Source: Selenomonas sp. (GTDB taxonomy: Bacteria; Bacillota_C; Negativicutes; Selenomonadales; Selenomonadaceae). From it: a stretch of DNA of 11,984 bases. The notes under the pieces are model-generated. The model saw only the letters and a program-made list of their open reading frames with translations, made no database searches and was not told the origin of the DNA. The translations under genes were made by a program, and so were the position numbers. Positions 3,068 through 11,637 of this stretch are shown in pieces; the first letter of the stretch is position 1; each line of letters opens with the position of its first letter. The stretch spans positions 1 to 11,984 of the forward strand of contig NZ_JAILKR010000048.1 of the NCBI RefSeq assembly GCF_024693525.1, read 5' to 3'.

Positions 3068-4738
3068 TTATTTCCCAGCCTTCATACGGTTGATCGCGCT
3101 GAATAGCGCCTGAATGGATGCCGTGATGATATCCGTGTCCATGCCAGCGCCCCAAGTGATGTGACCATTCTCCGCAGTAATGCCGATATACGCCATAGCC
3201 CGGGAATTCTGGCCAACCTCCATAGCATGCTCACTGTACGTCAAATCTTTGTAGACGATTCCCAGATTTTTCTGCAGGGCATTTGAAACAGCGTCCAGGC
3301 GGCCATTACCACGTGCCTCAAACGAGACTTCCTTCCCATCGGCCTTGAGGTCGACCGTACCAGAACGCGTTCCATCTGGTTCTTTTTTGAGCAGGAAATC
3401 CACTAACTCATAAGGCTCCACGATGTTGACATACTCGTTCTGGAAAATCTGGAAAATTTCATCCGGCATGAGTTCTTTGTGTTTGTGGTCGGATACACTC
3501 TTAACGCAGTAACCAAAATCCTCACGCATCTTCTTCGGCATCTCGATCCCATATTTCTGCTCCATAATAAAGCCGACACCACCCTTACCGGACTGGCTGT
3601 TGATGCGAATAACATCGCCGTCGTATTCACGACCAACATCTTTCGGATCGATATAGAGATAAGGAAGCGTCCATTTATCCGGATTCTTTTCCTCTTTCCA
3701 CTTCATGCCTTTCGCGATAGCATCCTGATGCGAACCGGAGAACGCGGCAAAGACCAATTTCCCCGCATAAGGCTGACGATAGCTGACTTCCATTCGCGTA
3801 AGGCGTTCATAGGTATCTACCAGCTCGGACATATTCGAGAAATCCAACTCAGGATCAACGCCCAGGGCAAACATGTTCATGCCCACGGTCACAATATCCA
3901 CGTTGCCCGTGCGCTCACCGTTGCCAAAGAGCGTCCCTTCCACGCGGTCAGCACCAGCCAAGATTCCCATCTCCGTATCGGCGACACCGCAGCCGCGATC
4001 GTTGTGCGGGTGCAGGGACAGGACGACATTATCACGATATTTTAGATGCTTATTCATATAAGCTACCTGCATCGCATAGACATGCGGCATGCTCATTTCG
4101 ACGGTAACCGGCAGATTGATGATTGCCTTGCGGTCAGCAGTTGGTTGCCAGACATCGAGCACGGCATTGCAGACCTCCAGAGCATATTCCGGCTCTGTTC
4201 CCGTAAACGATTCCGGTGAATACTCAAAGCGATAATTTTCCCCAGCTTCCTCGGTAAGCTGCTGCAAAAGTTTTGCTCCATCGACCGCTATCTGCTTGAT
4301 TTCTTCTTTTGATTTACGGAATACCTGCTGACGTTGGGCTACCGAAGTAGAGTTATAGACATGAACGATGGCATTTTTGACGCCTTTCAAGGCTTCAAAA
4401 GTCTTACGAATGATATGTTCACGAGCCTGCGTGAGTACCTGAATCGTCACATCATCAGGAATCAGATTCTCCTCAACCAACCGGCGCAAAAATTCGTACT
4501 CCGTCTCCGATGCTGCCGGGAACCCGACCTCGATTTCCTTGAATCCGACTTTGATGAGCATCTTATAGAATTCCAGCTTTTCTTCGAGGTTCATCGGCGT
4601 GATGAGCGCCTGATTGCCATCACGCATATCCACGCTGCACCAGATTGGCGCATGATCTGGTGCATCCTTTTTCGCCCATTCGAGATCAATCTCTGGCGGC
4701 AGAAAATAACCTTTGCTGTACTTCTGATAATTCATCAT
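3068..4738 (-). CDS. leuA: 2-isopropylmalate synthase, long LeuA2-type
   Basis: Condenses acetyl-CoA with 2-oxoisovalerate to form 2-isopropylmalate, the committed step of leucine synthesis, in the cytoplasm. At 556 residues it belongs to the longer form found in actinobacteria and some Firmicutes, not the roughly 510-residue enteric form. The catalytic TIM-barrel domain spans about 30-320 and shows DMRDGNQAL (Arg39, metal-binding Asp40), GFKEIEVGFPAAS (66-77), the HPHNDRG metal site (His243, His245) and GERTGNVD (274-281). The C-terminal regulatory domain, about 440-556, has GNGRLDAVSNAL (477-488) and GAGMDTDIITAS (530-541), which fits leucine feedback binding. The start is one of two adjacent ATGs, 8 bases after AGGAGGG. 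Expression is controlled by the leucine T-box immediately upstream. No other leu gene is in view. Confidence 0.96.
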   Translation of the reverse strand: MMNYQKYSKGYFLPPEIDLEWAKKDAPDHAPIWCSVDMRDGNQALITPMNLEEKLEFYKMLIKVGFKEIEVGFPAASETEYEFLRRLVEENLIPDDVTIQVLTQAREHIIRKTFEALKGVKNAIVHVYNSTSVAQRQQVFRKSKEEIKQIAVDGAKLLQQLTEEAGENYRFEYSPESFTGTEPEYALEVCNAVLDVWQPTADRKAIINLPVTVEMSMPHVYAMQVAYMNKHLKYRDNVVLSLHPHNDRGCGVADTEMGILAGADRVEGTLFGNGERTGNVDIVTVGMNMFALGVDPELDFSNMSELVDTYERLTRMEVSYRQPYAGKLVFAAFSGSHQDAIAKGMKWKEEKNPDKWTLPYLYIDPKDVGREYDGDVIRINSQSGKGGVGFIMEQKYGIEMPKKMREDFGYCVKSVSDHKHKELMPDEIFQIFQNEYVNIVEPYELVDFLLKKEPDGTRSGTVDLKADGKEVSFEARGNGRLDAVSNALQKNLGIVYKDLTYSEHAMEVGQNSRAMAYIGITAENGHITWGAGMDTDIITASIQALFSAINRMKAGK

Positions 4739-4753
4739 CTGCGAATCCCTCCT

Positions 4754-4791
4754 AAAAATAAAAGCCTTTCATCTCTAAGAGACGAAAGGCT
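4754..4791 (-). terminator. Attenuator terminator of the leuA T-box
   Basis: On the minus strand an AGCCTTTC..GAAAGGCT stem with inner TCTC/GAGA pairs (4763-4791) is followed by TTTATTTTT. Its 5' arm contains CGTCTC (4784-4779), which can instead pair with GAG and ACG on either side of the T-box bulge to make the antiterminator. The leuA ribosome binding site follows at once. Confidence 0.9.
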
Positions 4792-5025
4792 AGCTTACGT
4801 GTTACCACTCCAATTCGTGCCTATCGGCACCTCATACAGACTCTATCAAGTCCTCCTGTTCGATAACGGTCAGGAACCGTTCCGGTCTACTCGCCCCTGC
4901 CGGGCTTTCAGCGGACTGCTTCAAGGTGAGTTCCGCATTCATCCACTATTGTCTTTCACCAACCGACAACTCTCTGAAGTCATCCGAATACGTACTATTC
5001 CTCTGCTATGCATTTCTCTGTGTTG
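4754..5025 (-). promoter_or_regulatory. T-box riboswitch, leucine specific (CUC specifier), controlling leuA
   Basis: A leader of about 270 bases that binds tRNA-Leu and allows leuA transcription when the tRNA is uncharged. Stem I carries GAGGAATAGTA on the 5' side of the specifier loop, closed by a 7-pair helix (CGTATTC with GAATGCG). The 3' side reads GAACTCACC, placing the specifier CTC (Leu) at 4930-4928. The distal part has CAGAGAG and GGTTGGTGAAAG, typical of the tRNA-elbow-binding loops. A GCGAGTAGACCGG element fits the stem II region, and GTGCCGATAGGCAC forms stem III. The T-box bulge is TGGTAAC (4807-4801), flanked by GAG and ACG that pair with CGTCTC in the terminator arm. TGGT would pair with the ACCA end of the tRNA. 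The specifier matches the downstream gene. Confidence 0.93.
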
Positions 5026-10271: not shown

Positions 10272-11060
10272 ATGCATCAGTATTTGTTCTTTATTGGCGA
10301 TTTCCCCGTTCGCGCTTACGGACTAGTCTTGTCGCTTTCCATTATATTAGCTACGGGCGTCGGCTATTTCCTCGTAAAAAAAGAAGGCCGCGGGGAAGAG
10401 ACCTATCTGGTAGACCTTGGCATATATTGCGGCATTGCCGGCCTTATCGGTGCTAGACTATGGGATGTATTCTTCTTCGATTGGGATTATTACAGCCATC
10501 ACCTCACCGAATTATTTAACGTTTGGCAAGGTGGCATGGCCATCCAGGGCGGTATTTTTCTCGGCGTGTTGGCCGGTATTTTCTACTGCCGCCATCATAA
10601 GCTCGATACGGTCCGGCTCATGGATGTATTAGCCCCGGCTATCATCTTGGGACAGGCACTTGGTCGCTGTGCCAATCTCTTAAATGGCGATGCCTTTGGT
10701 GCACCTACCGGCGGATCCTTTGGAATCGTATATCCTGCCACTACTTTGGCCGCTCATACCTATGGTACCCAGCCCCTTTGGCCCGCTGAAATTTGGGAAG
10801 GGCAGCTCGATATGGTCATCTTTGCCTTGCTGTTGATGTTCCGCTGTACCAATCATGCCAAAGGACAGTGTTTCGCACTCTACGTCATGCTATATAGTTC
10901 AGCTCGATTCGGTTTGGAATTTCTACGTGGCGATTACGCAGAAAAAGTTTTGGCATTCATGACTAGTGCGCAAACCACCAGCTTCTTCGCCTTTACCATA
11001 GCGTTTCTCATCTTTCTGTATTTGGGATGGAGAAAAACCTCTTCCTCCCCAAATACTTGA
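10272..11060 (+). CDS. lgt: Prolipoprotein diacylglyceryl transferase
   Basis: Transfers diacylglycerol from phosphatidylglycerol to the lipobox Cys of prolipoproteins, the first step of lipoprotein maturation, in the cell membrane. The 262 residues carry about seven hydrophobic segments, the family's usual topology. Family motifs are visible: FPVRAYGLVLSL (11-22), GARLWDVFF (60-68), WQGGMAIQGG (85-94), the signature-like LGRCANLLNGDAFG (130-143) with the essential Arg at 132, and ARFGLEFLRGD (211-221) with the conserved C-terminal Arg. Where the E. coli enzyme has His103 (FHGG) this one has Gln92; Firmicutes vary here. The ATG lies 6 bases after AGGAGGC. The stop codon overlaps the -35 of the next gene's promoter, and no terminator separates them. 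It diverges from ileS. Confidence 0.96.
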   Translation: MHQYLFFIGDFPVRAYGLVLSLSIILATGVGYFLVKKEGRGEETYLVDLGIYCGIAGLIGARLWDVFFFDWDYYSHHLTELFNVWQGGMAIQGGIFLGVLAGIFYCRHHKLDTVRLMDVLAPAIILGQALGRCANLLNGDAFGAPTGGSFGIVYPATTLAAHTYGTQPLWPAEIWEGQLDMVIFALLLMFRCTNHAKGQCFALYVMLYSSARFGLEFLRGDYAEKVLAFMTSAQTTSFFAFTIAFLIFLYLGWRKTSSSPNT

Positions 11061-11086
11061 CGGTCATCGATACGATAAACTATAAT
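11057..11086 (+). promoter_or_regulatory. Promoter of the SpeD-like gene
   Basis: TTGACG (11057-11062, 5 of 6 consensus), 18 bases, and a perfect TATAAT (11081-11086). The -35 overlaps the lgt TGA stop codon. The predicted start is near 11093, about 35 bases before the GTG start codon, so the gene can be expressed independently of lgt. Confidence 0.8.
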
Positions 11087-11127
11087 ATAACTAAGTATGT
11101 ATTGACAAAAAAGGAGCGAAATTTATA

Positions 11128-11586
11128 GTGAAAATCTTAGCCCGTCATTTAACGGCCGATTTATTCAACTGCAAAAACAATAAACTTACTGATATAGAAC
11201 TCATCAAAACTACACTCGACGATGCCCTTGCTGACAACAATCTCAAGGTTATTGATTCGAAGATCCAACAACTAAGCGAAGACCATTATCTGCTTATTGC
11301 AATCCTTCCCGAGGGTCACATCACGCTTCATATCTATGCCGACCTTAAATATGTTGCCTTAGATATTTTCCTCTGCCAGGAAGATGCCGAGCCAGATAAA
11401 CTATCTAAAGAAATTCGCAACTTCTTTAAGCCGGATAAAACGAAAACTACTGTTTTGAAACGCGGCAATTTTGGCAACGCCAAAGACATTAAGCCAAAAG
11501 TCAAAACCAAAGTTGCTCCCCTGCGTAAGATTCACAACACGGGCGCCAAGGTCATCCGCATCCTAGCGAGAAGAAATCATCAATAA
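11128..11586 (+). CDS. SpeD-family protein lacking the pyruvoyl-forming serine (probable pseudoenzyme)
   Basis: A 152-residue homologue of bacterial S-adenosylmethionine decarboxylase (class 1b SpeD). Normal SpeD self-cleaves before a Ser to make a pyruvoyl cofactor and decarboxylates AdoMet for spermidine synthesis. Family features align without gaps to the Thermotoga maritima enzyme as I recall it: ARHLTADLFNC (5-15), PEGHITLH (61-68) and DIFLCQED (79-86), with His68 and Cys83 in place. Position 63, the processing Ser in ESH, is Gly (codon GGT), and there is no Ser nearby, so self-cleavage and decarboxylation should be impossible. After about residue 100 the tail is Lys/Arg-rich and longer than usual, ending in RILARRNHQ. 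The start is GTG with AGGAG about 11 bases upstream. It could be a regulator, a partner of an active SpeD, or a repurposed fold. No polyamine gene is adjacent. Confidence 0.85.
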   Translation: MKILARHLTADLFNCKNNKLTDIELIKTTLDDALADNNLKVIDSKIQQLSEDHYLLIAILPEGHITLHIYADLKYVALDIFLCQEDAEPDKLSKEIRNFFKPDKTKTTVLKRGNFGNAKDIKPKVKTKVAPLRKIHNTGAKVIRILARRNHQ

Positions 11587-11600
11587 GATATTTATGAAAA

Positions 11601-11637
11601 AACAGCTAACGCATTACGCGATAGCTGTTTTTATTTT
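11601..11637 (+). terminator. Terminator of the SpeD-like gene (probably bidirectional)
   Basis: An AACAGCTA/TAGCTGTT stem with inner CGC/GCG pairs (11601-11629) is followed by TTTTTTATTTT. The upstream GAAAAAAC gives a T-run on the minus strand too, so it can also stop transcripts arriving from the rRNA side. Confidence 0.88.

Follow-up and report, generated by a model that had tools for sequence, protein, structure and literature searches.

A tail-bearing SpeD paralogue without the self-cleaving serine in Selenomonas and its relatives among the Negativicutes

The window analysed here, i.e. the whole stretch of 11,984 nucleotides from Selenomonas sp. (contig NZ_JAILKR010000048.1) to which all coordinates below refer, contains a stand-alone open reading frame for a tail-bearing paralogue of SpeD, the S-adenosylmethionine (AdoMet) decarboxylase (AdoMetDC). 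The gene (11128..11586, + strand) starts with GTG, ends with TAA and encodes 152 amino acids. Its product combines a class 1b AdoMetDC-like domain (residues 2-118; 11131..11481, +) with a conserved basic C-terminal tail (residues 114-152; 11467..11583, +), and its codon 63 (11314..11316, +) is GGT for Gly at the position where SpeD has the self-cleaving Ser. The initial annotation had described the protein as a SpeD homologue with Gly63 and as a candidate pseudoenzyme, and the first of these statements agrees with the match to PF02675 (E 5.3e-24). The conserved tail, its spread across the class and the occurrence of more than one change at residue 63 go beyond that description. Genome-wide statements refer to the genome of the closest relative (G001), one contig of which, from Selenomonas sp. 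ND2010, is 98.5% identical to the window across 8857 bases; "the genus" stands for the genus group of this genome.

The protein shares the AdoMet_dc fold and the profile score with the class 1b SpeD of Thermotoga maritima (1tlu, 1vr7; S63A variant 1tmi). Residues 2-116 align to 1tlu without a gap and with identical numbering; the similarity, which had been thought to stop at about residue 90, reaches to about residue 116-118. Around site 63 the window protein reads PEGHITLH compared to SESHLTIH in T. maritima, and it retains both His68 and Cys83, as had been claimed before; we take these two to be the catalytic residues of SpeD. Further differences from class 1b SpeD are Leu49, Leu55, Tyr70 and Asp72, where Phe, Ser, Trp and Glu are found in all 31 tail-less SpeD proteins of our set, and the additional tail. 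The acyl shift needs a side chain, which Gly does not have. Without Ser63 no pyruvoyl group can form and, therefore, no decarboxylation by the known mechanism is possible. Judged from its sequence, the Selenomonas protein very probably has no pyruvoyl decarboxylase activity. The structure entry of the T. maritima S63A protein (1tmi) is titled as a non-processing mutant.

The exchange is fixed among the relatives. With two motifs of the C-terminal part, 73 loci were retrieved. Many of these are metagenome bins, and their titles refer to Selenomonas, Mitsuokella, Megamonas, Anaerovibrio, Schwartzia or relatives without a name. Gly63 is present in all 72 loci that cover the site (the 73rd is cut), none of which has the internal Ser for pyruvoyl formation, and in all 120 of the matches listed from 208 homologues (E<=1e-3). 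Residue 64 differs in three of these 120 homologues. His68 is found in 66/72 loci and 105/120 listed homologues, Cys83 in 68/72 and 119/120, respectively, and codon 63 is GGT or GGC across the 10 loci inspected. Hence, the conservation of Gly63 among orthologues, which the initial annotation had suggested to check, rules out a strain mutation or a sequencing error. Furthermore, the ratio of nonsynonymous to synonymous substitution rates (dN/dS) indicates purifying selection on the intact frame, with whole-gene values of 0.027-0.091 in nine computable pairs, synonymous sites being saturated in the other pairs. In the six pairs computable for both parts, dN/dS is 0-0.034 for residues 97-152 compared to 0.045-0.103 for residues 1-96. 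The view that the gene is a conserved pseudoenzyme and not a decaying copy is thus well borne out.

The gene was also said to possess its own promoter, ribosome binding site and terminator. The ribosome binding site AAGGAGCG (11111..11118, +), with AAGGAG preceding the GTG start, also occurs in the 8 loci inspected. The promoter-like sequence TTGACG-18-TATAAT (11057..11086, +) overlaps the end of lgt, and a hairpin followed by a T run, a likely terminator read from the sequence, lies at about 11598..11633 (+). By eye, TTGAC and TATAAT recur 5' of the gene in 8 Selenomonas loci, and a hairpin with T run is found 3' of it in the same 8 loci. This recurrence speaks for the claimed signals. However, the promoter match alone carries little weight because 3 such sites in 751 bases compare to 2.3 +/- 1.6 in shuffled sequences, and the list of a strict terminator scan does not contain the hairpin. 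The upstream neighbour on the same strand is lgt (10272..11060, +; PF01790, E 4.7e-57), which has no part in the mechanism proposed below.

The second characteristic of the protein is its tail. About residues 114-152 have no counterpart in ordinary SpeD, and residues 97-150 are well conserved with the pattern KPDKTKTT.LKRGDFG..KD.KPK.KTKVAPLRKIHNTGAKVIR.LARR. The mean column entropy is 1.6-1.9 bits for residues 97-150, 2.0 for residues 1-20, 3.0 for 21-55 and 2.2 for 56-96. Among 86 representatives that are less than 72% identical, the mean net charge amounts to +8.7 for residues 114-150 compared to -2.0 for residues 1-113. In the structure model the tail forms a short strand (124-129) and then a C-terminal helix (138-151), and the segment 138-148 of this helix is amphipathic in 68/86 representatives (shuffle p<0.1).

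A profile of the tailed paralogue built from 55 diverse members matched 284 of 300 Negativicutes genomes; named members of the family include Sporomusa, Sporolituus, Methylomusa, Anaerospora and Dialister. No match was obtained in the other 16 genomes, the genomes being of unstated completeness. Two of the 284 deserve mention: in G252 the match is weak (4e-4), and in G102 the gene is split. In about 150 listed rows and 30 genomes, the main matches extend from model positions 1-8 to 144-151 except for these two. The tailed gene of G102 (L253) is spread over two frames, which may reflect a real frameshift or a mistake in the assembly. In a sample of the phylum, 136/199 genomes matched the profile; the match covered the tail to its end in only five, all of them Negativicutes that also belong to the class sample, and the remaining matches go no further than position 126 except by reading through a stop codon. 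Within the phylum and class samples, the tail is a feature of the Negativicutes.

Across the family, residue 63 is variable. From the 294 loci, 197 different tailed proteins and 33 others were obtained. Owing to biased sampling, the following numbers do not represent class frequencies. Among the 197 tailed proteins residue 63 is Gly in 138, Ser in 45, Cys in 5, Ala in 4, Thr in 3 and Phe in 2, i.e. 152 are without Ser63. Two of the 33 others have Gly, namely L155, a tailed gene truncated at the edge of its contig, and the frameshifted gene of G102; the remaining 31 are tail-less SpeD proteins and all have Ser63. With a Dialister-type Cys query, 39 homologues were found with Ala (20), Ser (13), Cys (4) or Met (2) at site 63 and Phe instead of Cys83 in 35; one of them is an ordinary SpeD. 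This Dialister-type group (L130-L133, L135, L137, L141, L145, P0242-P0279), with Ser, Ala, Cys or Met at residue 63 and mostly Phe at position 83, also comprises several members with an insertion in the tail.

Changes are likewise seen at other positions of the pocket. All 31 tail-less SpeD proteins have Phe46, Phe49, Ser55, Trp70, Pro71, Glu72 and Gly84, and Phe49, Ser55, Trp70 and Glu72 are presumably AdoMet-contact positions. Of the 152 tailed proteins that lack Ser63, 15 still have Phe49, 24 Ser55, none Trp70, 76 Pro71 and 50 Glu72; His64 is found in 150, Asp79 in 151 and Arg112 in all 152. The 45 Ser forms are intermediate (Phe49 29, Ser55 2, Trp70 0, Glu72 32, Cys83 29, His68 45). Constraint looks to act on the fold and the tail more than on the chemistry.

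We calculated two trees to place the tailed family. The full-length tree included the 86 tailed representatives and ten rows of the other set, had no tail-less SpeD from Negativicutes and omitted column 63; the domain tree (residues 1-113) included the 86 tailed and 23 tail-less proteins, four of them from the class. Both separate the tailed family from tail-less SpeD with a support of 100/100, and in the full-length tree the two rows with Gly from the other set are placed within the tailed family, as expected. The full-length tree requires a minimum of 8 changes between Ser and non-Ser, the domain tree a minimum of 6, and a single origin of the non-Ser state was rejected on the full-length tree (p 1.4e-18). 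It must be mentioned that the trees have few columns, many open forks and bootstraps that have not settled, and that the change counts cannot separate loss of Ser from regain. Because Ser is present in the outgroup and the Sporomusa-like rows, the distribution suggests that Ser is ancestral at residue 63.

The question of a partner was approached through the gene content of the genomes. A search with PF02675 gave exactly one match in each of the 22 genomes of the genus, always the tailed gene; the second, Ser-containing SpeD that the initial annotation had asked for was thus not found by this profile in any of the 22. A further PF02675 match exists in the genome of 44 of the 45 Ser-bearing tailed proteins, read by hand, with G130 as the exception. 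In the class, 104/300 genomes have exactly one PF02675 match, 99 of them with a strong match to the tailed profile (counted by hand, genomes of unstated completeness). Among the 15 genomes of Selenomonas relatives, seven additionally encode a class 1a-like SpeD with a KSH site in a frame of 263-293 amino acids, and eight have no other PF02675 match. The speE gene, whose presence had also been suggested for checking, was found above the cut-off in 19/22 genomes of the genus and in 44/50 sampled genomes. All six sampled genomes without speE above the cut-off carry the tailed protein, including G088 with its 2.09 Mb contig. A tetramerisation domain (PF17284) is part of the SpeE of G001, which shares 56% identity with the Schwartzia protein and scores lower; by sequence, the Selenomonas SpeE may have changed its donor. 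This leaves a puzzle, since Selenomonas retains speE, yet no other homologous source of decarboxylated AdoMet (dcAdoMet) was found. As a separate observation, G001 contains at C1:278000-296000 (L295, positions 6549-13378) a cluster without speD, in which genes for arginine decarboxylase (ADC), SpeE, carboxyspermidine dehydrogenase (CASDH) and carboxyspermidine decarboxylase (CASDC) are followed by aguA- and aguB-like genes; ADC, speE and CASDH are named by Pfam and CASDC by TIGR01047, and the agu labels are a sequence reading only.

The neighbourhood of the tailed gene was surveyed in 88 of 112 loci in which it could be anchored; in the other 24, which were dropped, it was hidden by the crude gene caller. 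The lgt gene is located within 6 kb in 37/88 anchored loci, in 28 of them in the same orientation and no more than 300 bp away, and 34 of these 37 loci come from the Selenomonas-relative set. Outside this set, 11/32 anchored loci (L128, L132, L140, L141, L145, L146, L147, L159, L161, L162 and L163) have ctsR within 6 kb in the opposite orientation, 88-3722 bases away, with mcsA alongside in most and mcsB and clpC in some. Other features of the window are a T-box leader (RF00230, 108.9 bits; 4775-5017, -) upstream of a 2-isopropylmalate synthase-like gene (3068-4738, -), a metal-sensitive repressor (PF02583; 6219-6593, -) with a His-rich stretch as its N-terminus, and the 3' end of a 23S rRNA (RF02541; 11854-11984, -), which points towards the SpeD paralogue and ends about 270 bases beyond it.

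As the favoured explanation, to which we give a probability of about 0.6, we propose that the window protein is a non-catalytic SpeD-fold member of a tailed paralogous family. Such a protein would never self-cleave and would make no dcAdoMet. The family would have diverged from SpeD either before the ancestor of the Negativicutes or in it, and fold and tail would have been retained despite decay of the catalytic site in at least two lineages. We infer that the protein could serve, without catalysis, as a scaffold or regulator, probably in the form of a SpeD-type dimer, whose basic tail with its short strand and helix would dock on an acidic partner, for instance RNA, a membrane or a protein. 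A non-enzymatic role conserved through the class seems rather probable to us, and docking of the tail as the core of this role is a tentative idea at somewhat less than even odds.

Several observations weigh against this explanation. Ser63 is retained in 45/197 tailed proteins and, with a Sporomusa-type Ser query, in 113 of the 120 matches listed of 983 homologues, the other 7 having Gly; judged from these sequences, part of the tailed family may still be an enzyme. Moreover, His68 is kept in 144/152 and Cys83 in 120/152 non-Ser proteins, and this retention hints at some function of the pocket. A single origin of Gly was not rejected on the full-length tree (p 0.146). The confidence of the structure model is low in the tail, with 10-residue blocks at 58-73. 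The domain helix 89-100 is amphipathic nearly as often as the tail helix (64/86), and over 138-150 the number drops to just 20/86. Since this character is no stronger in the tail helix than in the domain helix, amphipathy is no proof of docking. Membrane docking by the tail helix thus found no specific support: nothing sets it apart from other amphipathic helices, and its amphipathy is weak over 138-150. Finally, no conserved gene neighbour indicating a partner was detected in the 88 anchored loci.

Among other explanations, the trypanosomatid prozyme is a precedent, i.e. the protein might associate with a genuine SpeD of its own cell and activate it. The prozyme is described in passages of PMC5201418, and the larger class 1a-like SpeD with its KSH site in 7/15 genomes of Selenomonas relatives would provide a partner there. 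However, a general role of this kind, which the initial annotation had named as a parallel, is unsupported because many genomes are without any other PF02675 match, as in 8/15 relatives, all 22 genomes of the genus and the 99 class genomes with a single match; we consider it unlikely. The coexistence with speE allows another proposal, in which the protein would provide SpeE, in trans, with a dimerising SpeD-like domain of the kind fused N-terminally in human spermine synthase. An obligate partnership with SpeE is weakened because the tailed protein occurs in the six genomes without speE above the cut-off, G088 included; furthermore, speE of G001 belongs to the separate ADC-speE-CASDH-CASDC cluster and its product brings its own PF17284 domain, which makes this proposal an unlikely one, too. 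Could the protein still decarboxylate AdoMet through an unrecognised cofactor route and feed dcAdoMet to the Selenomonas SpeE? The presence of speE without any other PF02675 match in the genus and the retention of His68 and Cys83 in most loci would fit. Nevertheless, Gly offers no side chain for the acyl shift, the AdoMet-pocket positions are lost, related lineages have Ala, Cys, Thr, Met or Phe at site 63, and SpeE itself diverged in Selenomonas and may have changed its donor. We regard such a route as very improbable.

The idea that the protein may sense AdoMet has lost ground as well, since Phe46, Phe49, Ser55, Trp70 and Glu72, invariant in tail-less SpeD, have drifted here. A more specific version of a regulator would be a membrane- or RNA-docked sensor of polyamines tied to the cell envelope. 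It would then be a hallmark of the Negativicutes cell, linked to the distinguishing trait of the class, its polyamine-decorated peptidoglycan, and would be a candidate for sensing or serving this polyamine pool. According to passages of PMC10628300, the peptidoglycan of Negativicutes carries polyamines on D-glutamate, and OmpM anchors the outer membrane there. The SpeD fold would have been turned into a switch that senses diamines and has the basic tail for its effector, and Ser63 would thus be dispensable. The shared taxonomic range is the sole link between the tailed protein and polyamine-decorated peptidoglycan with OmpM tethering, and we find this version quite improbable. A relic in decay or an erroneous sequence has a negligible probability. 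Nothing supports it for the window gene, and only the tailed gene of G102 elsewhere looks frameshifted; the low dN/dS, the intact frame, the recurring promoter, the conserved tail and the matches in 284/300 genomes refute it.

The non-catalytic SpeD-fold protein that we favour has parallels in known systems. According to passages of PMC5201418 and PMC12803844, respectively, the AdoMetDC fold is kept for structure or regulation in the prozyme and in the N-terminal domain of human spermine synthase. Like the prozyme, the tailed protein is an AdoMetDC paralogue that is kept by selection and catalytically dead, here by sequence; unlike it, the prozyme is larger, of the eukaryotic AdoMetDC type and has an active partner, for which PF02675 found no candidate in the 22 genomes of the genus searched. 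The domain of human spermine synthase (3c6k) is fused to an aminopropyltransferase, whereas the window protein stands alone and has a basic tail. A degraded SpeD2 domain in a fusion protein of Victivallis vadensis has lost critical active-site residues, as stated in parts of PMC10407285. It is likewise derived from bacterial SpeD, but it is a domain of one fusion protein, while the tailed family is free-standing and class-wide. The same parts of PMC10407285 report neofunctionalised SpeD proteins that act as pyruvoyl-dependent ornithine or arginine decarboxylases made by self-cleavage at Ser. Both these and the tailed proteins are paralogues with a changed role, but the window protein has Gly63 in place of the processing Ser.

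Sporomusa ovata is named among the genomes with AdoMetDC homologues by Li et al. (PMC11999265), in passages of which neither a tail nor a missing Ser is mentioned for it. A term search of PMC10407285, PMC11999265 and PMC11107197 gave no mention of Selenomonas or Negativicutes, and a description of the tailed family was not found among the matches listed from the open-access PMC literature.

The finding has consequences for annotation. The NCBI equivalog model TIGR03330 scores the tailed protein as AdoMet decarboxylase (79.1 bits for the 152 amino acids, cut-off 75.65) despite the missing Ser63, and pathway reconstructions that trust this name are wrong for Selenomonas and others. The tailed paralogue probably does a different job from SpeD. 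It would provide a bacterial, class-wide counterpart of the prozyme and of the N-terminal domain of spermine synthase, with several changes of the catalytic residue to compare.
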